In this document: positions 8,763-48,676 of the stretch, piece after piece
Position numbering within the stretch: position 1 is the first letter of the stretch
How the letters are laid out: each line of letters begins with the position of its first letter
NCBI RefSeq assembly: GCF_000374045.1
Contig: NZ_KB893330.1
Span: 9,394-73,393 of the forward strand
Direction of reading: 5' to 3'
Length of the DNA: 64,000 nucleotides
Source of the DNA: Segetibacter koreensis DSM 18137
GTDB lineage: Bacteria > Bacteroidota > Bacteroidia > Chitinophagales > Chitinophagaceae
Program-made: the position numbers and the translations under genes
Notes under the pieces: generated by a model
What the model saw: the letters and a program-made list of their open reading frames with translations, nothing else
Databases searched by the model: none
Told to the model about the DNA's origin: nothing

Positions 8763-9971
8763 TTATAATATATCATTCAAAATCTCGTGACCCATTTTAT
8801 CGCGTTTGGTTTGGAGGTACTTCTCATTGTGCGGGTTTGACTTGACTTCAATAGGGATAATATCAACTATTTCTAAACCATATCCTTTCAACCCTGCTCG
8901 TTTTTTCGGATTGTTGCTCATCAATCTTAACCTGGTAACTTCAAGGTGTCTCAAAATCTGGGCACCCACTCCATAATCTCTTTCATCTGTTCCAAACCCA
9001 AGATGTATGTTGGCCTGCACAGTGTCCATCCCTTGTTCCTGCAGTTTATATGCTTTCAATTTATTTACAAGGCCTATTCCCCTTCCTTCCTGGTTCATAT
9101 ATAAAATGATCCCCTTACCCTCCTGCTCTACCATTTGCATCGCTTTGTGCAATTGTTCCCCACAATCACATCTCAGGCTTCCTAAAATATCGCCGGTGAA
9201 GCAACTGCTATGTACGCGTGTGAGTACTGGCTCACCTTTTTGCCATTCTCCTTTTATTAATGCAAGATGTTCTCTTCCCGTACTTTTTTCTTTAAAAGCC
9301 ACCAGTTTAAAATTTCCATATTTCGTGGGCATTTCAACCCTGACGATCTCTTCAATCAAAGAATCCCTTTTAAGCCTGTACTCAATTAAATCTTTTATTG
9401 AAATAATTTTTAAATTAAACTTTTGCGCTATCTCCTGCAACTGCGGCAGTCTTGCCATGGTTCCGTCCTCACTCATAATTTCTACCAATACTCCTGCAGG
9501 CTCAAACCCGGCCAGCCGTGCTAAATCAATAGCAGCCTCGGTGTGGCCTGTCCTCCTTAGTACGCCACCTTTTTTTGCCCGTAACGGAAAAATATGTCCT
9601 GGCCGTCCTAAATCTGCCGGCATTGTATTACGATCTATTAATGCGAGTATTGTTTTCGCCCTGTCATGGGCAGATATACCGGTAGTACAACCATGACCTA
9701 ATAAGTCAACAGAAACAGTAAAAGGGGTTTCGTGTAAAGAAGTGTTGCTATTAACCATAAGATCGAGTGCCAGTTCATCGCAACGGTCTTCTACAAGAGG
9801 AGCACAAATTAATCCACGACCCTCTTTGCTCATAAAATTTATAACTTCGGGCGTCACCATTCTTGCTGCGATTATAAAATCACCTTCATTCTCCCTATCC
9901 TCATCATCAACTACAATGACCATTTTTCCTGCCTGTATATCTTCAATAGCACTTTCAATAGAATCTAACAT
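8763..9971 (-). CDS. ribBA: bifunctional 3,4-dihydroxy-2-butanone 4-phosphate synthase / GTP cyclohydrolase II
   Basis: Catalyses the two entry reactions of riboflavin synthesis: ribulose 5-phosphate to dihydroxybutanone phosphate, and GTP to the pyrimidine precursor. The N-terminal half is RibB, with the acidic loop [11 protein letters not shown] and the [13 protein letters not shown] motif; the C-terminal half (from about residue 205) is RibA with zinc ligands in [17 protein letters not shown] and the [10 protein letters not shown] loop. I place the start at 9971 ([12 protein letters not shown]) because the family normally begins there; an ATG at 9980 adds three residues. No FMN riboswitch is visible upstream and no other rib genes adjoin, so it is scattered from the rest of the pathway. 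Confidence 0.96.
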
Positions 9972-10275
9972 AAATCGCATTTTTACAAAATTACAATCAA
10001 AGAGTGTAAACCTTTCAAATATAACAAAATCAATCGTAAAGTTTAAATGTCAACGATTAAACATAACGGCGGTGTATACTACAATATAACGGTCTATCAT
10101 ACAAAGTACAGTTTACTAGGTGCAGTAATAATTTTAAATAAATACGTATTAAAATAATACAGCATAATATTTAATGAAACAAATTTTGTGCATCGTTGTT
10201 AATATTTAATTAATATCGGCAAATCGGTGATAAAAGAATAAAACGTTTCTTTGCCTTTCAAACAAAAATGCACTT
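9972..10275. other. divergent intergenic region with AT-rich palindromes
   Basis: No gene is seen in these 304 bases. They lie between the divergent ribBA and TonB-receptor genes, so both promoters should be here. A palindrome AATACGTATT sits at 10141-10150. AAACGTTT at 10241-10248, about 27 bases before the receptor start, has the shape of a LacI-family half-site pair. Both are short enough to be chance in such AT-rich DNA. Confidence 0.4.
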
Positions 10276-13200
10276 ATGTTTAAAAATTACATTTATTTTT
10301 TATTAATATTTTTTATACCCTTCGTCGTAATGGCACAGGAAACTACATCTGAAATTGTAGGAACAGTTTCAGATGGAAAAACGCCATTGGTAGGAGCTAC
10401 AGTAAGTGTGCTTAATATTCCGACGGGCACCCAATCTACAACTACGACACGTAAAGAAGGCCGTTATAATTTGCCTAATCTACGGGTAGGCGGACCTTAT
10501 TCTATTACAGTTAGTTATGTGGGGTATGAGCAATCAAAACGGGATAGTGTTTTCTTGCTATTGGGACAGGAATATAAAGCAGATTTTAATCTCACCGCTT
10601 CATCGGCAGCACTGCAAAATGTAATAGTTACATCTGTGAGGCAAGACAGAGTTTTTAATACAAGTCATACAGGTAGCCAGGAAATAATTGGACGCAACCA
10701 AATTGAAAGGTTGCCGACCATTAACCGTAGTTTACAGGATTTTACAAGACTTACTCCTTCCGCAAATGGCTTAAGTATCGGTGGACGCAGCAATTTGTAT
10801 AATAATGTAACCGTTGATGGTGCAAACTTTAATAACGCCTTTGGACTTTCTTCTACATTAGGCGGCCAAACCAGTTCGCAACCTATTAGTCTTGACGCGA
10901 TAGAGCAGATACAGGTAAACGTCTCTCCTTACGATGTGAGGCAAGGAGGATTTTCAGGAGCAGGTATTAATTCTGTTACAAGAAGCGGCTCTAATACTTT
11001 TAAAGGCTCTGTTTATACTTATATAAGAACACCGGACCTGCAGGGTTATAACGTAAGAGAAAACAAAATACCTAAGCCAAGCTTTGATTATAACTTACGC
11101 GGAGCTTCTGTTGGAGGACCTATTATTGCAAATAAGTTATTTTTCTTTATAAGCGGTGAACAGGAAAGAATAAGCCAGCCGGCTACTACCCTTGTTGCAG
11201 CTAAGCCTGGTCAAACCGGAGTGCCGGGAGTTGTTTCACAAGCTGTTGCTGACACTTTAGATGCGCTAAAGAATTTTTTGATGTCAAAATATAATTACAA
11301 TCCCGGAGAGTACCAGGGTTATAATTACAGAACGCACAGTGATAAATTAACGGTACGGCTAGATTGGAATATAGACAAAGCCAATACACTTACATTGAAA
11401 TACAATTACCTGAAATCATTCAGAGACATCGCTGCAAGTAATAGTGGTGCTCCTAACGGAAACAGGCAACCAGGTAATAATGGATTGCCTTTCAGCGGAA
11501 GTGGTTACACCATTAATAATAATTTCAACATTTTTATTGCAGAATTAAATACCAGGATCAGTAATAAGTTATCTAATAAGTTACAGGCAGGATACTCTGC
11601 ATTACGTGACTTCAGAGCTTCTCTAGCAGGCTCAGATTTTCCTTTGGTAGATATTTTAAATCCAGTAGGGCAAACTTATACTTCCTTTGGTTATGAGCCG
11701 TTCACTTACAACAACTTGTTATATTCTGATATTTACCAGGTATCAGACATATTAACGTACTATGCAGGCCGGCATGAAATAACAGCAGGCACTCAGAATT
11801 ATATTAAGAAATTTGAAAACGGTTTTGCACCTAATTACGAAGGCGCCTATATATTTAATAGTCTTTCAGACTTTTACAACAGCGCAACCAACGGTGCTCA
11901 CACTGCCAAAAATTACGCTTTGCAATATTCATTGACTAAAGATGGCTCTTTTCCTTATGCTAATATAGGCTCTACCGAGATAGGATTTTTTCTGCAGGAC
12001 AAATGGAGGGTTAAGAATAATCTTACTATTACTTATGGGCTTCGCACAGATGCTCCGATATTCAAGAATCAGTTTACGTCGAATCCGTTTGTTCCATCCT
12101 TAACCTTTAGAGACGGCCAGCATTATGATGTAGGTCAAAAGCCTTCTACAAATCCACTGATATCGCCAAGAGTGGGATTTAACTGGGACGTATTTAATAA
12201 TCAGAAAACGCAAATACGCGGAGGAATAGGTTCATTCTCAGGCCCACCACCATTTGTATATATCAGCAACCAGGCAAGTAACAATGGAGTGCAATTCGGC
12301 TCATTTTCAAGAACTGTAAATCCTGCTGACAGTTTGCCTTATGTTTTCAGTCCTGATATAAACACTTACAGGCAAGGCACAACAGGAAAAGCAAATACTT
12401 CTTACAACCTTGTATTCACGGATAAAAATTTTAAGTATCCCCAGGTTTTAAAAACAAGTATAGGTGTAGATCAAAAACTTCCCGGTGGCGTTATTGCAAC
12501 TGTTGAATTTACTTACAACAAAGACCTTTATGCTATCAATTTTGAAAATGTAAACCTGCCTTCAACAGGTACCCCTTTAGCAGGGCTTGATAACAGGATT
12601 CGGTATTCATCAACAAAAATTTATTCCGGTACGCCTGTCGCAACAGAAACTAATCCTAATATCACCAATGCAATATTGATGAAAAATTATTCTAAAGGAT
12701 ATTCTACTGTTGCAACAATTCAATTACAGAAAAACTTCCGCAACTTGTATGCTAGTGTATCTTATACATATAGTAAAAGCAAGAGTATAAACGATGGAGG
12801 CTCTATTGCTGCCAGCACATGGAGAGACAGGCCTGTTTCGAATGATCCAAATGCCCCTGAGCTGGGTTATTCAAATTTTTACCAGCCTCATCGTGTTATT
12901 GCCCAGGCTTATTATCGCAAAGAATATGGAGATCACTATGCAACATCAGTGGGTTTGGTTTTTGAGGCTGCGCCAAGCGGTGTCGGTTCATATACCTATG
13001 CAGGTGATGTAAATAATGATGGTACAGGTGGAAATAATGATCTTATCTACATTCCCAGAACACAGGCTGATATAGTTCTTGTACCTGTTAATACAGGTGG
13101 AGGCACTGTAACCGATACCCGGACACCCAATGAAATGTGGAACGAGTTAAATAGCTTCATTGACCAGGATCGTTACATGAAGTCTCATAGAGGACAGGTA

Positions 13201-13560
13201 GCCGAACGGAATGCTGCAGTTTTGCCTTTCTTTAAACACCTTGATGCTAACATAACACAAGATTTTTATTTAAAAACAGGCAAAAGCAAGCATACGTTAC
13301 GATTGACCTTTGACATGATTAATATTGGGAACTTCGTAAATAAAAATTGGGGGATTGCTAAAAATTTCAGTTCTACTTCATTTCTTAAATATGAAGGTTT
13401 AGTAACCGACCCAGCTGACGCAAACTTTGGAAAGCCCCGTTATTCATTTCTTTACCAGGATGCTGCGAACAAAATTCCTTTTACAAACAGTTACCAGGAT
13501 AATACAAGTATTTTTTCTCGCTGGCAGGGCCAGTTTGGAATAAGATATTTGTTTAACTAA
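10276..13560 (+). CDS. TonB-dependent receptor, Oar-like, with carboxypeptidase regulatory-like N-terminus
   Basis: An outer-membrane TonB-dependent transporter-like protein. A signal peptide ends at ...FVVMAQ. Residues ~28-110 form a carboxypeptidase regulatory-like domain (GTVSDGKTPLVGATVSVL). A plug domain follows (about 115-250), recognisable from GRNQIERLPTINRSLQDFTR and GGRSNLYNNVTVDG, then a long barrel ending ...QGQFGIRYLFN. The large size and plug style match the Oar-like group rather than SusC: there is no SusD lipoprotein next to it, so it is probably not part of a polysaccharide locus. Substrate unknown. It is a single-gene unit ending in a strong hairpin at 13578. Confidence 0.92.
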   Translation: MFKNYIYFLLIFFIPFVVMAQETTSEIVGTVSDGKTPLVGATVSVLNIPTGTQSTTTTRKEGRYNLPNLRVGGPYSITVSYVGYEQSKRDSVFLLLGQEYKADFNLTASSAALQNVIVTSVRQDRVFNTSHTGSQEIIGRNQIERLPTINRSLQDFTRLTPSANGLSIGGRSNLYNNVTVDGANFNNAFGLSSTLGGQTSSQPISLDAIEQIQVNVSPYDVRQGGFSGAGINSVTRSGSNTFKGSVYTYIRTPDLQGYNVRENKIPKPSFDYNLRGASVGGPIIANKLFFFISGEQERISQPATTLVAAKPGQTGVPGVVSQAVADTLDALKNFLMSKYNYNPGEYQGYNYRTHSDKLTVRLDWNIDKANTLTLKYNYLKSFRDIAASNSGAPNGNRQPGNNGLPFSGSGYTINNNFNIFIAELNTRISNKLSNKLQAGYSALRDFRASLAGSDFPLVDILNPVGQTYTSFGYEPFTYNNLLYSDIYQVSDILTYYAGRHEITAGTQNYIKKFENGFAPNYEGAYIFNSLSDFYNSATNGAHTAKNYALQYSLTKDGSFPYANIGSTEIGFFLQDKWRVKNNLTITYGLRTDAPIFKNQFTSNPFVPSLTFRDGQHYDVGQKPSTNPLISPRVGFNWDVFNNQKTQIRGGIGSFSGPPPFVYISNQASNNGVQFGSFSRTVNPADSLPYVFSPDINTYRQGTTGKANTSYNLVFTDKNFKYPQVLKTSIGVDQKLPGGVIATVEFTYNKDLYAINFENVNLPSTGTPLAGLDNRIRYSSTKIYSGTPVATETNPNITNAILMKNYSKGYSTVATIQLQKNFRNLYASVSYTYSKSKSINDGGSIAASTWRDRPVSNDPNAPELGYSNFYQPHRVIAQAYYRKEYGDHYATSVGLVFEAAPSGVGSYTYAGDVNNDGTGGNNDLIYIPRTQADIVLVPVNTGGGTVTDTRTPNEMWNELNSFIDQDRYMKSHRGQVAERNAAVLPFFKHLDANITQDFYLKTGKSKHTLRLTFDMINIGNFVNKNWGIAKNFSSTSFLKYEGLVTDPADANFGKPRYSFLYQDAANKIPFTNSYQDNTSIFSRWQGQFGIRYLFN

Positions 13561-13646: not shown

Positions 13647-14486
13647 TTATTCCGTATTTCCCCATCCCCACTGTAAAAAAGCAGGGAAAGCTCTTTTCCA
13701 TGTTTCTACGTTATGTCTACCATCTTCTAGCTCCAAATAAAAAATCTGTTCATCAGTATAGCCTAAATCTTTTAAGGCACTAATAAGGTCGGTTGTGTCT
13801 TCTATTGAGTCAATAATTCCATTATTGTTGCGATCAGCAGTTTCATCCAGTCTTCCACATTCAAAAAAGAATCGTAAGCCGGGTTTAAAAATTCCTTTCT
13901 TAACCTGCAAATGCATGAGCCGATCCTTTTCATCATTATAACCTTCATCTTCGTACCCTTTTCTTCTCCACCATAATGAACCACTAAAAACACCTGCTTT
14001 TACAAATTCGGCAGCATGATTCCAAACAAGATCAAGTGCACTTAAGCCCCCAAGAGAAAAACCGGCAAATGATTTCTCTTTGAACGAGGAAATAACGAAT
14101 TCTGATTTTATAGAGGGCAACAATTCATCAAAGATAAACTTACCATAAAGGCCGGCCTTTACACCCCTGCCTTTGTAATCAACACTGCAGATCGTTCCGT
14201 ATTCATTCATTCTGTCAATACCACAATGTATCCCCACACATAAAACCGGTCTAATACTTTTAGACATGAGCAACGAGTCTATAAGTGAAGTAAAGTTCAT
14301 AGTACGCAGATCTTGCCCATCATTAATAAGCAATAATTCGATTTCTTCTGCAGTGCCAAGTAAACTTATGGGCAGATATATATCGACAATAACATCTCTC
14401 TCTAAATAATCAGAATAAATTCTTCTTTGTTCAACACATCGGATGCCACCAGTTTTTTCGTTTAAAACAACCTCATCTTCCAACAT
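13647..14486 (-). CDS. esterase D-like alpha/beta hydrolase with an EF-hand-type loop
   Basis: An alpha/beta hydrolase of the putative-esterase (Fes/esterase D-like) family, apparently cytoplasmic as no signal peptide is seen. The nucleophile is Ser144 in GFSLGG; Asp214 (CGRLD) and His258 (DGRHNVETW) fit the rest of the triad. Directly after Asp214, residues 218-229 read D-R-N-N-N-G-I-I-D-S-I-E, a complete EF-hand/dockerin-type calcium loop, unusual in this fold. The gene is divergent from the ATP-grasp and carboxylate-amine ligase genes, 257 bases away. It may release or trim their product, or act independently; that link is inference. The exact substrate is unknown. Confidence 0.85.
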   Translation of the reverse strand: MLEDEVVLNEKTGGIRCVEQRRIYSDYLERDVIVDIYLPISLLGTAEEIELLLINDGQDLRTMNFTSLIDSLLMSKSIRPVLCVGIHCGIDRMNEYGTICSVDYKGRGVKAGLYGKFIFDELLPSIKSEFVISSFKEKSFAGFSLGGLSALDLVWNHAAEFVKAGVFSGSLWWRRKGYEDEGYNDEKDRLMHLQVKKGIFKPGLRFFFECGRLDETADRNNNGIIDSIEDTTDLISALKDLGYTDEQIFYLELEDGRHNVETWKRAFPAFLQWGWGNTE

Positions 14487-14743
14487 AAATCTTTAATATA
14501 ATATTCCTAAATCTACATTTTTGCAATAAATGAGCCCCTTTTATAATTCTTTAAGTATATTCGAGAAATACAAAGATGAGGAACGAATGTATCACTTTAC
14601 ATACTCATTTTTACAGTCCGCTATCCTAATTAACTAAAAACGAATTAGCTGGCAATACTTTTGTTCTTGAGTGTCACTTGTATATGGCAGTGCTACCGGA
14701 AGCCCTATAAAAAAGGCTTTTAACATGAAAACAGTTAATTGTT

Positions 14744-15697
14744 ATGAAAAAAATTGGAATTCTTTTTGGAAAAGAGAGAAGCTTCCCCATGGCTTTTATT
14801 GATAGAGTTAACAGCAAAAAATTTGACGGAATATCTGCTGAACCAGTCTATATAGATAAAGTAATGCAGGGAGAACCAGCAGGTTATGCAGTTATCATCG
14901 ATCGCATCAGCCAGGATGTACCTTTTTACAGAGCCTATCTTAAAAATGCGGCTTTAAGTGGAACTGCTGTTATCAATAATCCTTTTTGGTGGAGTGCAGA
15001 TGAAAAGTTTTTTAATAACTGTCTTGCGACCAAAATAGGAGTTCCTGTGCCTAAAACAGTTATTTTACCTTCATATAAATTGCCGTTAGACACTTCAAAT
15101 GAATCTTTCAGCAACCTTGCCTACCCCTTAGACTGGGAAGGAATTTTTGACTATATCGGTTTTCCTGCTTATATGAAACCATTTGCTGGTGGAGGTTGGA
15201 AAAGCGTGTATAAGGTTGAGAATGTAGACGATTTTCTGGTAAAACATCATCAGACTGAAGAACTGGTTATGATGCTGCAGGAAGAAATTATATTTGAAGA
15301 ATATTACCGGTGCTACTGTATTGGCGGAAAATACGTGCGCATTATGCCTTACGAACCCCGCAATCCTTTTCACTCACGGTATGTCGCCAATTTTTATCCT
15401 ACTGAAGAAAAGCTTAAAGAAATGGAAGATATTGTTCTTCTCTTAAATAAATATCTTGGATATGATTTTAATACGGTAGAATTAGCGGTAAGAAATGGAA
15501 TTCCATACGCAATTGACTTTTGTAATCCTGCACCAGACGCTGATATAAATAGTGTAGGCCAGGAAAATTTCGATTGGGTAGTAGAAACAGCCGCAACCTA
15601 TGCAATAGAAAAAGCACTTTCCTATCAACCTGGAAAAGATAATCTTACATGGGGAGAATATGTAAAAAGAAGCAGTTCAAATGTAAATTTGGTTTAA
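14744..15697 (+). CDS. ATP-grasp ligase (RimK-like)
   Basis: A cytoplasmic ATP-grasp enzyme, expected to activate a carboxylate as an acyl phosphate and join it to an amine. Seen directly: a pre-ATP-grasp domain (1-~130), Lys145 and the glycine-rich loop in MKPFAGGGWKSVYKV, the strand with Q179-E181, and the metal-binding residues Glu246 and Asp258/Asn261 (AIDFCNPAPD). At 317 residues it is close to RimK/DdlA size, but the pre-domain is not one I can name. It is followed after 174 bases by a GCS2-type ligase on the same strand, a pairing that suggests two successive peptide-bond-forming steps. Product unknown. Confidence 0.85.
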   Translation: MKKIGILFGKERSFPMAFIDRVNSKKFDGISAEPVYIDKVMQGEPAGYAVIIDRISQDVPFYRAYLKNAALSGTAVINNPFWWSADEKFFNNCLATKIGVPVPKTVILPSYKLPLDTSNESFSNLAYPLDWEGIFDYIGFPAYMKPFAGGGWKSVYKVENVDDFLVKHHQTEELVMMLQEEIIFEEYYRCYCIGGKYVRIMPYEPRNPFHSRYVANFYPTEEKLKEMEDIVLLLNKYLGYDFNTVELAVRNGIPYAIDFCNPAPDADINSVGQENFDWVVETAATYAIEKALSYQPGKDNLTWGEYVKRSSSNVNLV

Positions 15698-15871
15698 CAA
15701 CAAAATTCTAATGTTTTCTATTGGTAATTATTTTATTCAAAGTTTTAATATTTCTGCAAAAAAAGTAATAAGAGTCAGCCGTGGTAATACCGATGCAATA
15801 TTTCAATTTAAAGAATTTCTCACACACAATATCAGCGGGCTGAACAAATTTCTAAAATATAATCTACTTGT

Positions 15872-16981
15872 ATGGGGCCTGCGAATTATAAACATTTTAC
15901 GCTTGGGATAGAGGAAGAATATATGGTAATGGACCCGCAAACGCGCGAATTAAAAAGCCACGAACAAAGAATTGTAATTGAAGGTCAGAAAGTAATCAGA
16001 GATAAAGTAAAGGCCGAAATGCACCAGGCGGTAGTAGAAGTAGGAACGGACATTTGCCCCGATATTGATACTGCATACAGGGATGTTGCAACGCTTAGAA
16101 ATACAATTGCAAAAATAGCAGGAGATATGGGGTTGTGGTTGGGAGCTGCCGGTACACATCCTTTTAGCCATTGGGAAAGACAGTTGATAACCGATCATGC
16201 CCGCTACAATGATATTGTTAACGAACTTCAGGAAGCTGCAAGAAGTAACCTTATATTTGGTCTTCATGTACATGTAGGAATGGAAAGCAGGGAGATGGCC
16301 ATACATATTGCGAACTCTGCCCGTTATTTTTTGCCACATGTATACGCCCTCAGTACTAATTCACCGTTTTGGGAAGGCAGGTTTACGGGTTATAAATCTT
16401 ACCGTACCAAAGTATTCGATAAATTTCCCCGTACCGGAATTCCCGATTTTTTTGAAAGTATCGAAGCATATGACAATTATATTAAGCTACTCGTAAAAAC
16501 CAACTGCATAGACAATGCTAAAAAAATCTGGTGGGATCTGCGCGTTCATCCATTTTTTAACACTGTTGAATTTAGAATCTGTGATGTGCCAATGACGATT
16601 GACGAAACAATTGCAATAGCAGCTCTGTTCCAGGCTATTTGTGCAAAATTGTATAAACTTCGAACAAAAAATCTGAACTTTATTATGTACCAGCGCCTGC
16701 TGATAAACGAAAATAAATGGCGCGCAGGCAGGTACGGAATTGACGGAACAATGATTGACTTTGGTAAAGAGTCAGAAGTAAATACAAGAGTTTTAATTTA
16801 TGAATTACTGGAATTTGTAGACGATGTTGTAGATATTCTTGGTAGCCGACATGCCATTTCTTTTGTACACAAAATACTTGAAAACGGAACTGGCGCTGAC
16901 AGGCAGCTAGCAGTATTTAAAGAGACAAATAGCTTGGTATCAGTTGCAGACTACATACACGATAGCTTTTTACAAACGTGA
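15872..16981 (+). CDS. carboxylate-amine ligase, GCS2/YbdK family
   Basis: A member of the glutamate-cysteine ligase 2 (YbdK) family, which forms gamma-glutamyl or related amide bonds with ATP. The family signatures are all present: GIEEEYMV at 12-19, HQAVVEVGTD at 51-60, GTHPFSHW at 94-101, GLHVHVG at 130-136 and the sequence EFRICDVP in the C-terminal half. The 369-residue length is normal. It follows the ATP-grasp gene and probably shares its transcript. E. coli YbdK has weak glutamate-cysteine ligase activity, but most family members are uncharacterised, so glutathione-type synthesis should not be assumed. Confidence 0.92.
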   Translation: MGPANYKHFTLGIEEEYMVMDPQTRELKSHEQRIVIEGQKVIRDKVKAEMHQAVVEVGTDICPDIDTAYRDVATLRNTIAKIAGDMGLWLGAAGTHPFSHWERQLITDHARYNDIVNELQEAARSNLIFGLHVHVGMESREMAIHIANSARYFLPHVYALSTNSPFWEGRFTGYKSYRTKVFDKFPRTGIPDFFESIEAYDNYIKLLVKTNCIDNAKKIWWDLRVHPFFNTVEFRICDVPMTIDETIAIAALFQAICAKLYKLRTKNLNFIMYQRLLINENKWRAGRYGIDGTMIDFGKESEVNTRVLIYELLEFVDDVVDILGSRHAISFVHKILENGTGADRQLAVFKETNSLVSVADYIHDSFLQT

Positions 16982-17147
16982 AATATTGAAATAACTATTT
17001 GAAAATAAAAAAGAGCGAGTATCATAACTGCGATAAAAGGCAAAAAATGTTAAGGTTTATGCATATATAACATTCTGTATACGAATTGCTTTTTATATAC
17101 TTTTCAAAACAAATTCATTTGCAATAGCTTTGCAGCAAGAAAGTAAG

Positions 17148-18449
17148 ATGACTGAAATATTAATAATTTTTGGATTAATTGTAATAAACGGGCTTTTTGC
17201 AATGGCAGAGATAGCTTTAGTATCTGCCCGTAAGACAAGGCTTGAGCTACAAGCGAACAAGGGAGATGAGCAGGCAAAAAGAGCCTTAGAACTTGCAAAC
17301 CATCCTGACACTTTTCTATCAACCGTACAGATAGGAATAACTCTTATAGGAATCCTGACCGGTATTTTCTCAGGTGAAAACCTCAAAGGATCTGTTAATG
17401 ATTTTTTTAAACAGTATCCTTTACTGGCTCCGTACAGCGGGCCTATTGCTACTGCAGTGGTAGTAATATTGCTAACCTATTTTTCTTTGGTAATTGGTGA
17501 ACTGGTACCGAAAAAAATCGGGCTTTCAAAACCTGAATCGATAGCCAAACTGGTAGCAGCGCCAATGAGAGTTATTACTTTTATTACCTATCCTTTTATT
17601 TGGCTGTTGACAAGAAGCGCAAACGCGCTGGTAAAAATTTTCAAAATTAAACCACATGAAAGTTCAGTGACAGAAGAGGAAATAAAAGCCATTATAAACG
17701 AAGGAACGGAAACCGGTGCAATAGAAGAAAAGGAACAGGAAATTATCGAAAGAGTGTTCCATCTCGGTGATCGGAATATTACTTCACTTATGACACACAG
17801 GAGCGACATTGTATGGATGGAAGTAAATGCCAAGGTTGCAGATATTAAACAAAAAATGAATGAGGTGGTTCATACCAGTTATCCGCTTTGTGAAGGAGTT
17901 ATCGACAACATAAAGGGGATAGTTTCAATAAAAGATATTTTGCTCGCAAGTGATGATACCTTATTAAGAAATCTTATGAAACCCGGCCTATATGTTCCCG
18001 AAAACAATTCGGTGTACCAGGTATTGGAAAAATTTAAACAGTACAGTGCCAATAGCTGTTTTATAGTAGATGAGTATGGAAGCCTCGAAGGTATGATGAC
18101 TCTTAACGACATTCTCGAAGCAATTGTAGGGGACATTGGTCCTGTGGATGAGGACGATTATGAAATATTGGAAAGAGAAGACGGAACATATCTTATTGAT
18201 GGACAAATTCCTTTTTATGATTTTTTAAGCAGGTTTGAAAAAACGGAATTTATGAATGAAGGTGAACAGGAGTTTAATACTCTTGCTGGTTTTATTCTGC
18301 ACCAGTTAAAGACCATTCCTAAAACAGGCGATACACTGAACTGGAAGGGTTTCGACTTTGAAATAATTGATATGGATGGAAACCGCATCGATAAAGTTTT
18401 AATAACTCTTTCGGAAGAAATAAAGACAGAACTGCAGGAAAACAGTTAA
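17148..18449 (+). CDS. HlyC/CorC (CNNM) family membrane protein with CBS pair
   Basis: An inner-membrane protein of the CNNM/CorC family, linked to Mg or Co transport or efflux in characterised members. Residues 1-~185 are the DUF21 (CNNM) transmembrane domain with at least three hydrophobic segments; GELVPKKIGL is the conserved motif at its end. A tandem CBS pair follows (about 200-335, MTHRSDIVWM and GMMTLNDILEAIVG), then a CorC_HlyC C-terminal domain (about 345-430). The start is placed at the ATG at 17148; the longer frame would begin with TTG. Its true substrate here is not shown by context. Confidence 0.9.
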   Translation: MTEILIIFGLIVINGLFAMAEIALVSARKTRLELQANKGDEQAKRALELANHPDTFLSTVQIGITLIGILTGIFSGENLKGSVNDFFKQYPLLAPYSGPIATAVVVILLTYFSLVIGELVPKKIGLSKPESIAKLVAAPMRVITFITYPFIWLLTRSANALVKIFKIKPHESSVTEEEIKAIINEGTETGAIEEKEQEIIERVFHLGDRNITSLMTHRSDIVWMEVNAKVADIKQKMNEVVHTSYPLCEGVIDNIKGIVSIKDILLASDDTLLRNLMKPGLYVPENNSVYQVLEKFKQYSANSCFIVDEYGSLEGMMTLNDILEAIVGDIGPVDEDDYEILEREDGTYLIDGQIPFYDFLSRFEKTEFMNEGEQEFNTLAGFILHQLKTIPKTGDTLNWKGFDFEIIDMDGNRIDKVLITLSEEIKTELQENS

Positions 18450-24904: not shown

Positions 24905-27376
24905 TCATAATGGAACAAGTGTATAAGCTTTTCCTTTTTGAGCTATAAAAGATAATACGTAACCAATATTCATTTTTTGTGTCTTTGCAATTACTCCTTC
25001 TATTTTTACTGGTTGCGAAGTTCTTAGTTTACAAGGCCCACCAACACCTGCTTTGATAGTCGCTGTAGTCAACTGCTTACTTTTCCAATCTATGTCTATT
25101 TCAAAACCACCTCTTGCTTTTAAACCCTTTACCTGTCCTTCCTCCCATGCGTCAGGAAGCGCAGGAAGCAAGTGCAGTTCACCTAAATGACTTTGAAGTA
25201 GCATTTCACTCATGCCAGCCGTTCCACCAAAATTTCCATCTATTTGAAAAGGCGGATGAGCGTCAAAAAAATTAGGATAAGTTCCCCCGCCCCCGGAGTA
25301 ATTGGTTCCTTCCTGACCTGTAGCGTGTAGTAAGTCCCTCACCAATAAATAAGCGTGATTACCATCAAGCAGCCTTGCCCAAAAATTAATTTTCCAGGCC
25401 TTACTCCAGCCTGTTCCCTCATCGCCTCTTATTTCCAATGTTTTTTTCGCTGCTGCAGCAAACTCAGGCGTAGCAATTGGTGAAATCTGCCTACCTGGAT
25501 GCAGCCCAAACAAATGCGAGACGTGTCTATGGTGCACCTCCACGTCTTCCCAGTCTTTATCCCATTCCTGCAGGTTGCCCTTGTGACCAATATGCATGGG
25601 ATATAATTTCTTTTTCTTTGCAATCAACAGGGTACGAAAATCACTATCAAAACCCAATTCTTTTGAAGCGTCAATCAGGTTTGTAAATAAATCCCAAACA
25701 ATAGACATGTCCATGGTGGTGGCAACAGACACTTCAGAAACTTTACCTTTGGCATAACTGAAAACATTTTCAGGAGAAACAGATGGGGCTACTACAAGGT
25801 ACCCATCTTTATCTTCTACAAGCCAGCTTAAACAAAAGGTCGCTGCTCCTTTCATTAATGGATAAGCAGTGTCTTTTAGAAATTTTTTATCACCTGTAAA
25901 GCGGTAATGTTCCCATAAATGCTGGCATAACCAGTTGCCACCCTGCGCCCAGTTAGCCCACTTAGGGTCTCCGGTTTTTTGTCCCACAGGATTTGACAGA
26001 GCCCATATATCTGTATTATGATGTGCTACCCACCCCGGCAAATTATAAAATTGTTTTGCTGTTACTTTGCCCGTAATCGAAAGTTCTTTTATCAAATCAA
26101 AAAGCGGCATATGCATTTCTGACAAATTCGTTACTTCTGCAGGCCAGTAATTCATCTGGGTATTGATATTAATAGTAAAATTGGAACTCCATGGCGGCCT
26201 TAATTCCTTATTCCATATTCCCTGCAGATTTGCAGCTGTGCCACCCGGTCTTGAACATGAAATAAGCAGGTACCGGCCATACTGAAAATACATCGTTTCT
26301 ATGCCCGGATCATAAGCTCCTTTTGTGTATGACTGAAGGCGTTCATCAGATGGTAAGGAGGCATTTTTATTCTCTGTAGTATCTTTTAAAGTAAAAGAGA
26401 ACCGTTTAAAATATTTGTGATAATCAGATAAGTGGTTTTTTAATAATTGCTGATATGATTTATGCACTGCTTTTTCCAGGTATTGCTGAGCCAGCTTATT
26501 CTCATCTTTTCCGTCTTTATCAGGGCATTTATCAAACCCGTTGAAACTGGTAGCTGCTGATAAAAATAAAATAGCTTCAGATGCGTTGCCGATGTGTATG
26601 CCTGCAGTATCAGCCTTAACAGTCCCATCTTTTGTAACAGCTTTTATTCGTAATTGAAACCGCATTCCATTACATCCCGTTGTATCTTCATATGCAACAG
26701 GATCTTTGTCAGTGTTATGATAACTCGGATCTACATGAACAGGGGCTTTTCCCTTCATTATCAGTTCATCGTTACCTGATGCAACAAGTTGATAAAGCAA
26801 CAGGCTTTTTGTACTTACTGAGAAATTTAATTGATTAGGCTTGCCGGAGGTTAAACGAATAACAATTACCTGGTCAGGTGCGGAGGAAAATATTTCACGT
26901 GTAAACTCAGTTCCGTCAATGGTAAACTTGGTTGTAGAAATTGCATCCTCTATGTTTAAATCGCGATAGTAAGATGAAGGAGTCGTGTCTTTAAAATTTT
27001 GTTTAATTAAAAGATCTCCCAACGGCATATAGGACTCAGTAAAAACACCTTGCATTTTTTTTGCTAATGCAATGGCGGTTTCGTAATCTTCGTCTTTCAT
27101 TAATGCCTTTCTAATTAGTGGCAAGTATTTAGGTGCATCAGGATTTACATTTGTTTTTACCGGCCCACCAGACCATAAAGTACTTTCATTTAACTGTATT
27201 AATTCTTCGCTTACTTTACCAAATACCATAGCACCTAACCTTCCATTTCCAATAGGCAAGGCTTCCGTCCATACAGCGGCCGGCTTTTTATACCAAAGCT
27301 TAAGATTTTGCTGGGCCAGTAGTTGAGAAAAAATTAGCATGATGCTAAAAAAGACAAATAATAATTTTTTAGTCAT
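24905..27376 (-). CDS. glycoside hydrolase family 95 (alpha-L-fucosidase/galactosidase type)
   Basis: A secreted or periplasmic inverting glycosidase acting on terminal alpha-1,2-fucose or alpha-L-galactose. A signal peptide ends at ...SQLLAQQ. The N-terminal beta-sandwich begins [20 protein letters not shown] and includes [10 protein letters not shown], which are GH95 hallmarks. In the (alpha/alpha)6 domain, the catalytic asparagines lie in [13 protein letters not shown], the general-acid Glu in SVSPENVF and the Asp in [12 protein letters not shown]; all are intact. The length of 823 residues is typical. It is divergent from an SGNH esterase gene, which could act on the same acetylated glycans (inference). 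Confidence 0.94.
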
Positions 27377-46882: not shown

Positions 46883-48676
46883 TTATGTAGTTGCCAACTC
46901 GACGACGGGATGATCAATAAGATAAAGCCCATCTGTTATTAGTTTTTCATATTCTGCCGATGTGGAAGCTTTGCGCTCTAAATATTCTTTTATTTCTTTT
47001 GCGATTTCTGTATAAATGTTCTCCTGGGTCATTATCTCGAGAATTTCAAGAGAACATAACCAATCATCAGGAAAAACATATTTTAACCTGTTCCAAACTT
47101 CGGGCAACTGAAGACAATCATTGTGTTGCTCCCGGCAATTTCTTACCGCCTGAAACAATTGCTGGTATTCCTTTTCCCTTACAGTATAATTATGGTGATG
47201 GGTTTTGGTTTTAGGAATTAATGCAACTTCTTCAAAAGCGTTTTTATCTGCTGCCCCACAAAAAACAGACCTAATTCTTTCTCCAACTGCCATATCATAA
47301 TTACCCCATGCAGGCTCAAAATAATTTTCCCCGTCAACACCTTTAACCGTACAGTTTGCAAAAGTAATAATTAATAATTTTTCATTTTTAAATGTCAGTT
47401 GTGCAACCACTCCACCTACAGTAATGCCTGATTCAAATTTGAGGGAACCAGGTTTATCTTTTTCAATGCCTATATTTTGCAAGTCTTCTTCTGAAAAATT
47501 TTCAAGTGGCAAGTTGTTTCCTTTTAGTTTTCCCGCAGGGGATGTAAAACCATTTTTATGATAACTCTTGTCGTGACCGCTTAGTTGCTTATTTTCTTCA
47601 GCGAGAGCAGTAGGTCCGCCGGTTTTAATAAAAATTACATTGTTTTTGTCATCTACCTTCACATCTGTAAATATTCCTGAGACCTGCAAACCCGAATTGT
47701 AAACAACCGTGCAAACATTTTTGCATTCTATAGCTTTAAGCACACCTTCGGCACCCCCTTTTCTAAAAGCCATCGTATTTGCAAATTCTTCAAGTACATT
47801 TATCAAATTTTGAAAAGTTGGTGTTACAAATAACTGCGGCTGTGGTTTAGTTATGTCAAACGGATAATTAACTGCGTCAATAGTGTACCAGAGTTTTTTT
47901 ACTTCCGGCTTCATACAGTTAGCGCTTTCGCCGATAGACGATAACAAACCTGCTCCGTAGATTTTCGGATTTTCCAATGTTCCTATTAAACCATATTCTA
48001 CTGTCCACCAATGCAAGCGGCTTAATAAAGCCATTTCTGAAGGTTCACCAAGATTTTGCTGGCAGAACGCTACCTTTTTTTCTGCCTGGGTTAACTCATC
48101 AGCGTCAGCATCTGGCAACTCTTTTAAAATTGACAGTTCGCGTATTGCTTCATACAGCTCAAAATCTTTAAAGGAAAACATTGCTTTTGCACCAATAGAA
48201 CCAAAATAACTTAAGTATTGATTATAATCACTATCTGCAATTATAGGAGCATGGCCGGCAGATTCGTGAATGATGTCAGGAGCAGGAGTATATTCTATAT
48301 GATGTAGCTGGCGTATGTCAGCGGCAATGACCAAAACGTGGTATGCCTGGTATTCCATAAAGGCGGCCGGAGGAATGAAACCATCGACAGTAACAGCTCC
48401 CCATCCAATTTTTGCGAGTGCGTCATTCATTTCCTGCAAATCAGGAATTTTTTCTATAGTAAGGCCGGCTTTACGCAAACCAGGTATATAAGGGTAATAA
48501 GCCACATCTTTTAAATAGCTATAATTTTGACGCATCACGTATCGCCATACAGCATGATCAACAGGTGTGTATTTTTCATAATGCTGTTCTACTATAAATT
48601 GCCTTAAATGTTTTGGCAACAGGGCAACATGTGGATTATTAAAGTCATTAAATTCATTCATATAGTTTGCATTCAA
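46883..48676 (-). CDS. pterin-dependent aromatic amino acid hydroxylase with large C-terminal extension
   Basis: A non-heme iron monooxygenase, related to phenylalanine 4-hydroxylase, that would hydroxylate phenylalanine (or Trp/Tyr) using tetrahydropterin. The iron ligands are visible as His137 and His142 in IIHESAGHAPIIAD and Glu227 in WTVEYGLIG; VDGFIPPAAFMEYQA is the conserved pterin-side region. The catalytic domain takes about residues 1-310. The remaining ~285 residues (from about VLKAIECKNVCTVVYNSG) form a beta-rich domain I cannot name, absent from the ~260-residue bacterial PhhA. Start could be 48676 or the ATG at 48661. It heads a two-gene operon with an SDR. Confidence 0.92.
   Translation of the reverse strand: MNANYMNEFNDFNNPHVALLPKHLRQFIVEQHYEKYTPVDHAVWRYVMRQNYSYLKDVAYYPYIPGLRKAGLTIEKIPDLQEMNDALAKIGWGAVTVDGFIPPAAFMEYQAYHVLVIAADIRQLHHIEYTPAPDIIHESAGHAPIIADSDYNQYLSYFGSIGAKAMFSFKDFELYEAIRELSILKELPDADADELTQAEKKVAFCQQNLGEPSEMALLSRLHWWTVEYGLIGTLENPKIYGAGLLSSIGESANCMKPEVKKLWYTIDAVNYPFDITKPQPQLFVTPTFQNLINVLEEFANTMAFRKGGAEGVLKAIECKNVCTVVYNSGLQVSGIFTDVKVDDKNNVIFIKTGGPTALAEENKQLSGHDKSYHKNGFTSPAGKLKGNNLPLENFSEEDLQNIGIEKDKPGSLKFESGITVGGVVAQLTFKNEKLLIITFANCTVKGVDGENYFEPAWGNYDMAVGERIRSVFCGAADKNAFEEVALIPKTKTHHHNYTVREKEYQQLFQAVRNCREQHNDCLQLPEVWNRLKYVFPDDWLCSLEILEIMTQENIYTEIAKEIKEYLERKASTSAEYEKLITDGLYLIDHPVVELATT

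Follow-up and report, generated by a model that had tools for sequence, protein, structure and literature searches.

What do two adjacent genes for amide-bond-forming ligases make in Segetibacter koreensis DSM 18137, and are they the whole of the system that makes it? The question is raised by a stretch of 64,000 nucleotides of contig NZ_KB893330.1 (assembly GCF_000374045.1, positions 9,394 to 73,393), called the window here, in which a gene for an ATP-grasp ligase (ligase A) is followed by one for a ligase of the GCS2/YbdK family (GCS2), with an esterase gene running the other way. The best reading is that a biosynthetic module has been split and that one half of it lies in the window. The core of this module is ligase A with a second ATP-grasp ligase, ligase B, which belongs to the neighbour cluster c4; they are usually joined by GCS2, often by the GATase-like c3, and by one or two esterases with no evident signal peptides. 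On balance we lean towards a small intracellular peptide of the gamma-glutamyl type, perhaps capped with an amine, as the product of these predicted amide ligases, rather than a ribosomal peptide; the gamma-glutamyl or peptide nature of this putative product is judged solely by enzyme families and folds. The parts that lie in the window are the following.

13647-14486, minus strand: esterase (alpha/beta hydrolase, PF00756), 279 amino acids; divergent partner, with no signal peptide evident by eye
14487-14743, no strand: divergent intergenic region, 257 bases; no Rfam match
14744-15697, plus strand: ATP-grasp ligase A, 317 amino acids; RimK/LysX-like fold in the model
Motif residues of ligase A: K145, GGG149-151, K153, R189, E246, D258, N261
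15872-16981, plus strand: GCS2/YbdK carboxylate-amine ligase, 369 amino acids; assigned by Pfam and NCBIfam

Is this arrangement conserved? Ligase A is present in 103 of the 147 genomes of the window's family, and 40 of these loci were taken, with preference for long contigs and a wide spread. GCS2 lies within 1.5 kb downstream of A in 38 of the 40, and the divergent esterase stands beside A in 34; in the best 80 named loci among the matches listed, each of the two genes is found in 78. The original prediction had left it to be seen whether the ATP-grasp and GCS2 genes stay neighbours across Bacteroidota and whether the esterase recurs with the pair, and by these counts both do, beyond what chance would give. 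The two same-family loci without GCS2 (L046 and L047) carry A copies 36-37% identical to that of the window. As for the named loci, the sequence of those lacking GCS2 (L190 and L200) stops 177 and 693 bases past the A gene, and of those lacking the esterase, L162 starts 41 bases before A and L202 has none within 3.2 kb. Further upstream (window 8763-13560), ribBA and a gene for a large TonB-type outer membrane protein occur in the same order in several same-family loci, which is probably plain synteny.

Do the two ligases suffice? To the 40 loci were added 60 from the 139 phylum hits, spread over families and 59 of them outside the window's family, and the open reading frames (ORFs) of the 100 loci and the window were clustered to define the neighbour clusters (c3, c4, c5, c11, c21 and so on). 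GCS2 is the next same-strand gene after A in 60 of 94 loci. In the fullest layout, the esterase on the minus strand is followed by c5 (a second esterase), A, GCS2, c3 and c4, tightly packed on one strand; the Pedobacter loci L209-L212 have all six within one stretch. In 17 of 100 loci A, GCS2, c3 and c4 follow one another directly on the same strand; c5 often precedes A, and many other loci keep part only. The original prediction is thus partly borne out: the two ligases do stay adjacent, but the system is larger than the pair, with a second ATP-grasp gene and a GATase-like gene belonging to it, and GCS2 accompanies A in 117 of 138 genomes.

In the window's own genome, of 6.1 Mb, c3 and c4 are adjacent, on a different contig (C46) from A and GCS2. 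The nearest named relatives among the matches listed are Segetibacter metagenome-assembled genomes (MAGs), at 85% identity. One of these, L135, holds the esterase, A, GCS2, c3 and c4 together, and because so near a relative has all the parts in one place, the module may have been split recently in the window's genome. The other of the two nearest, L134, lacks both c3 and c4 over its 14.5 kb. No orthologue of c5 is claimed for the window's genome, the best candidate being a 35% match elsewhere.

The assignment of c3 is by family: the copy at L060 scores 32.0 bits against PF00117, class I GATase (cut-off 22.8), and the residues C111, H214 and E216 (Cys / His-x-Glu) are invariant in 15 aligned rows. 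At L095, L099, L111, L112 and L117, in genomes with no strong c3 match anywhere, A has a gene for an M29-type aminopeptidase (c21) nearby. Two more genes adjoin the module at L074, L083 and L085, namely c20, another ATP-grasp-like one, and c45, which by eye resembles an aminopeptidase gene. At L092 and L096 the gene after A resembles, by eye, the histidine ammonia-lyase family (c51), and GCS2 is more than 10 kb off on the same contig.

Are these genes inherited together, beyond lying together? A set of 392 Bacteroidota genomes, at least 90% complete, was searched for A, c4, GCS2 and c3, which gave raw matches in 139, 119, 134 and 108 genomes, respectively. Weak matches were dropped (G182 for A, G190 for c4, 13 GCS2 genomes below 400 bits and 20 weak c3 genomes), so that 138, 118, 121 and 88 were kept. 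Overlaps are large: A with c4 in 114 genomes, A with GCS2 in 117, c4 with GCS2 in 113 and A with c3 in 86; the three ligases occur together in 109 genomes and all four genes in 66. Joint presence does not require linkage. In G186, on a single contig, A lies at about 0.48 Mb, GCS2 at about 0.74 Mb and c4 at about 1.23 Mb, and in G202 the unlinked c4 and A lie at 0.17 and 1.84 Mb. The genus g108 is patchy: A, c4 and GCS2 are all present in G283 and G358 and all absent in G165, G169, G200, G211, G227 and G310, with G294 as the exception. This joint presence at a distance, with the joint variation in g108, is evidence of co-inheritance independent of significance tests. With 117 of 138 genomes, GCS2 is a common, not an obligatory, companion of A.

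Which partners, then, go with ligase A? Its 138 genomes comprise 114 with c4, 16 with c11, seven with neither partner in which the glycine-rich, ATP-binding loop of A is lost, and one more, G499, where A and GCS2 are intact and c4 and c11 were not found in an assembly of about 220 contigs. In the 16 c4-less genomes c11 directly adjoins A. Strong c11 matches occur in all 16 of these, in none of 20 c4-positive genomes tested and in none of 19 A-negative ones; weak matches of 22-32 bits in G300, G260 and G413 were not counted. The matches of the c11 protein to models of circularly permuted ATP-grasp proteins are weak and below cut-offs, and c4 and c11 have no clear sequence similarity. Two apparently circularly permuted ligase families would thus fill one slot beside A. 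Loci in which c11 follows A are L089, L090, L091, L106, L108, L109, L110, L116, L122 and L123.

The state of A itself follows the same rule. The pattern K-GGG-[KR]-R-E-D-N, read in the fetched loci rather than in each of the 138 genomes, is found in 88 of 95 A copies, that of the window included, and the other seven have lost the loop. Six of the seven come from the partner-less genomes, and the seventh from G113, a genus-mate of G014. Among 15 further copies 14 have the motif intact, the exception being G490. The neighbour-order table (94 loci) and the motif table (95 copies) exclude L090, L100, L106, L119, L123 and L125, which were read separately and have the A motif intact in all six. The seven genomes with neither c4, strong c11 nor GCS2 (G014, G230, G300, G425, G481, G490 and G505) have thus all lost the loop of A. 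The loop-less A ORFs are still open (L046, L047, L098, L104, L115, L118, L120 and L217), some having lost the metal site too; seven of these eight loci sit in genomes without c4, strong c11 and GCS2, the genome of L046 being outside that set. It is possible that the loop-less homologues are pseudoenzymes with a new role.

Which kinds of ligase are these? For A, a Pfam search assigned no family, and the NCBIfam matches to RimK, LysX and MptN are all sub-threshold; with 27.6 bits against the 143.4 of the RimK family TIGR00768, A cannot be called a clear orthologue of any characterised enzyme, a finding that would have told against the original prediction had it been otherwise. An AlphaFold2 model was built from 12 sequences (predicted local distance difference test score, pLDDT, 79.5), and fold matches within 1 Z were treated as ties. 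Its best match among solved structures is RimK (Z 17.8, root-mean-square deviation (rmsd) 4.3, 260 residues aligned), then PsnB (Z 17.0) and LysX/ArgX (Z 16.8-15.9). The N-terminal domain, which had been called unassignable, corresponds in the alignment of the model to the ordinary N-terminal region of RimK, so that the modelled ligase A is an ordinary RimK/LysX-like ATP-grasp fold, that domain included. A resembles RimK, LysX and ArgX over nearly its entire model (Z 15.9-17.8), but differs from them in sequence, with about 15% identity. The metal site of RimK is E-x-N; in A the putative site, by sequence, is D-x-x-N.

The c4 protein has no Pfam or NCBIfam match (L060 copy). The model of the L135 copy (pLDDT 88.5) matches YgiC (Z 25.9, rmsd 3.3, 342 aligned), YjfC (25.5), GspS (24.6), human glutathione synthetase (24.2) and Cp1B (23.2), the best 18 entries having Z 23.0-25.9 over 328-374 residues. 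As modelled, c4 is therefore of the circularly permuted GSS/GspS/YgiC fold, which it shares with YgiC/YjfC, GspS and eukaryotic glutathione synthetase, while showing no significant sequence match to them. In Escherichia coli K-12, YgiC is annotated as a peptide--spermidine ligase; a 2023 paper on YgiC/YjfC is cited in PMC12568646.

GCS2 is a clear member of the family of E. coli YbdK, with 205.6 bits against PF04107 (cut-off 21), 521.5 against NF010039, "carboxylate-amine ligase" (cut-off 371), 290.1 against TIGR02050 (cut-off 176.4) and an E-value of 1.1e-49 to the structure 1r8g, and its profile has a single match in the whole genome. It differs from YbdK in missing the YbdK-specific PRK13516 (242 vs 425 bits) and in being co-inherited with two ATP-grasp ligases. 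The esterase scores 75.4 bits against PF00756 (cut-off 22) and stays under the cut-off of the enterochelin esterase NF007758 (38.6 vs 222 bits).

How might these enzymes work together? Judged by family or fold, GCS2, A and c4 all belong to types of enzyme that make amide bonds by way of an acyl phosphate. Substrates, reaction order, product and the role of the product can be sketched conditionally. GCS2 would activate a carboxylate, with the gamma-carboxyl of glutamate as the probable one, and couple it to a compound bearing an amino group. Ligase B would work in the manner of glutathione synthetase or YgiC and extend or cap the peptide, at a carboxylate, with an amino acid or an amine. Ligase A would attach another amino acid, which might be glutamate, the residue that RimK and ArgX add. 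The c3 protein might supply ammonia, hydrolyse or transfer an acyl group, and the esterase might trim an ester or thioester. A gamma-glutamyl-type peptide is favoured because glutathione synthesis has the same logic, with a gamma-glutamyl ligase first and a glutathione-synthetase-like ligase second, and an amine cap is considered because peptide-polyamine conjugates follow the logic of a YgiC/GspS-like ligase.

Several observations weigh against this scheme. The Fisher values for the overlaps are tiny, but they ignore relatedness. Four genomes (G285, G294, G360 and G452) have c4 and GCS2 without A. GCS2 is missing or weak in 21 of the 138 A genomes, of which seven have a degenerate A and 14 do not; among the 14, G180, G207, G298 and G318 have A, c3 and c4 with no GCS2 or a weak match. 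A first step made by GCS2 therefore cannot hold everywhere. Of the 109 genomes with all three ligases, 43 lack c3, whose sole match in a sequence search of the PDB is homoserine O-succinyltransferase (E-value 7.2e-4), so the label of amidotransferase is insecure. In sequence, c4 is weakly similar to YgiC (E-value 0.21; hhalign probability 12%). By eye, c4 has an invariant Asp and then E-x-Q, in place of the R-x-D / E-x-N of YgiC and c11, and because E-x-Q replaces E-x-N its metal site may differ from that of YgiC.

About a third of the sampled Bacteroidota (138 of 392) carry A, and the genes are kept together in genomes even when far apart, which points to a common metabolite that has no name. 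A more specific proposal, which we put forward tentatively and hold to be rather doubtful, is that a large part of the phylum produces an as yet undescribed conjugate of a gamma-glutamyl peptide with an amine, intracellular and similar to glutathionylspermidine. It would be built by a RimK-like ligase that depends on c4 or c11 as its circularly permuted partner, usually with GCS2 as one more ligase, and would exist beside bacillithiol and without a classical GspS; a search of the window's genome with PF03738 (glutathionylspermidine synthase) found no match. The module provides a short list of genes and enzymes in bacteria that can be cultivated, Pedobacter for one, and the prediction is that mutants in each of the three ligases should lose one and the same compound.

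Iyer and co-workers reportedly predicted, in 2009, amidoligase operons in which ATP-grasp and glutamine-synthetase-like ligases occur with peptidases. Stand-alone ligase pairs making small amides are already known. PMC12568646 describes how E-64 is built without a nonribosomal peptide synthetase, by stand-alone ligases acting in succession, among them Cp1B, which shares the fold family of the modelled c4; for pseudouridimycin, PMC6586884 describes the stand-alone amide ligases PumK and PumM. The likeness lies in the succession of ligases. Those systems are secondary-metabolite clusters with other partners, whereas the module described here is broadly inherited in one phylum. A different setting, in which operons encode an ATP-grasp protein akin to glutathionylspermidine synthetase next to PspA, is described in PMC11237479; neither this paper nor PMC8417944 or PMC2922099 yields anything decisive on the module. 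No description of the present Bacteroidota gene set was found in searches of open-licence papers.

Could the same genes serve another purpose? The alternative that survives best, improbable as we judge it, is protein modification: the RimK-like A would attach amino acids, glutamates or others, to the terminus or a side chain of a protein, B would cap the tag, and c3 or c21 would remove it. That RimK is the best structural match of A fits this idea, as does the alternation near A of two unrelated hydrolase-like kinds, c3 in 34 of 94 loci and c21 in five, never in the same neighbourhood. No conserved substrate protein, however, is seen by eye among the 40 most widespread neighbour clusters, and GCS2/YbdK and YgiC-like enzymes are known as enzymes that act on small molecules.

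Is the product a thiol like glutathione, with GCS2 making gamma-glutamylcysteine and B extending it? The pairing of GCS2 with the glutathione-synthetase-like fold of c4 suggests it, and the GCS2 profile weakly matches a plant glutamate-cysteine ligase (E-value 7.8e-5), but GCS2 misses the cut-off of the cyanobacterial GshA TIGR02048 (62.3 vs 249.05 bits). Moreover, the window's genome has the bacillithiol gene bshC (360.7 bits, cut-off 27). PMC6282198 reports genes for bacillithiol across the Bacteroidetes and the detection of N-methyl-bacillithiol in one member, Polaribacter; this distribution, with bshC in the window's genome, weighs against a thiol as the product. Some genomes also have A and c4 without GCS2, and we consider the thiol quite unlikely.

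Ligases of the CofF/MptN type add glutamates to cofactors, and A, possibly with B, could likewise build a glutamate tail on a cofactor. The sub-threshold matches of A to the LysX and MptN models are in keeping with such a role. Among the listed neighbour clusters, however, no cofactor gene stands out by eye except ribBA, a local neighbour only (13 of 101 loci), and the chances of this explanation seem as slender as those of the thiol.

Poorer still are the prospects of a catabolic route, in which the ligases would gamma-glutamylate an amine for breakdown and c3 would be a gamma-glutamyl hydrolase. The Puu route is the model for such breakdown, and near some copies of A there are indeed the GATase-fold c3 and an M29 peptidase and, in three loci, the aminopeptidase-like c45; against this, inspection by eye of the listed clusters brings out no oxidase, dehydrogenase or amine importer, and three ligases exceed the needs of the route. 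Finally, a ribosomally synthesized and post-translationally modified peptide of the graspetide kind, such as marinostatin or microviridin, with its precursor in cis between A and GCS2, the place to which this question was confined, is disfavoured because fewer than 60 bases separate the two genes in 43 of 61 cases; the gap in the window, however, is of 174 bases and holds mechanical ORFs of 20-66 amino acids, which would be candidates.

With the small gamma-glutamyl-type peptide still the preferred reading, what else does the window tell? The three ORFs, their strands and the 257-base divergent gap are, on re-reading the coordinates, as the original prediction gave them. An Rfam scan of the window at gathering scores returned zero matches, and a riboswitch or other RNA element was dropped from consideration. 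A tblastn search of 72,556 plasmid records found no plasmid-borne copies. The gene after GCS2 (17130-18449) was considered as a polyamine exporter; this was abandoned because it misses the cut-off of the PaeA model (328 vs 500 bits) and its cluster has no member among the module neighbours shown in other loci.

Farther along, positions 24905-27376 encode a GH95-family glycoside hydrolase (PF22124, 615 bits), presumably of the fucosidase type. At 46883-48676 there is a protein of 597 amino acids that matches the biopterin-dependent aromatic amino acid hydroxylases (PF00351, 94.6 bits) in two separate stretches, a length that we take to be unusual for this family.

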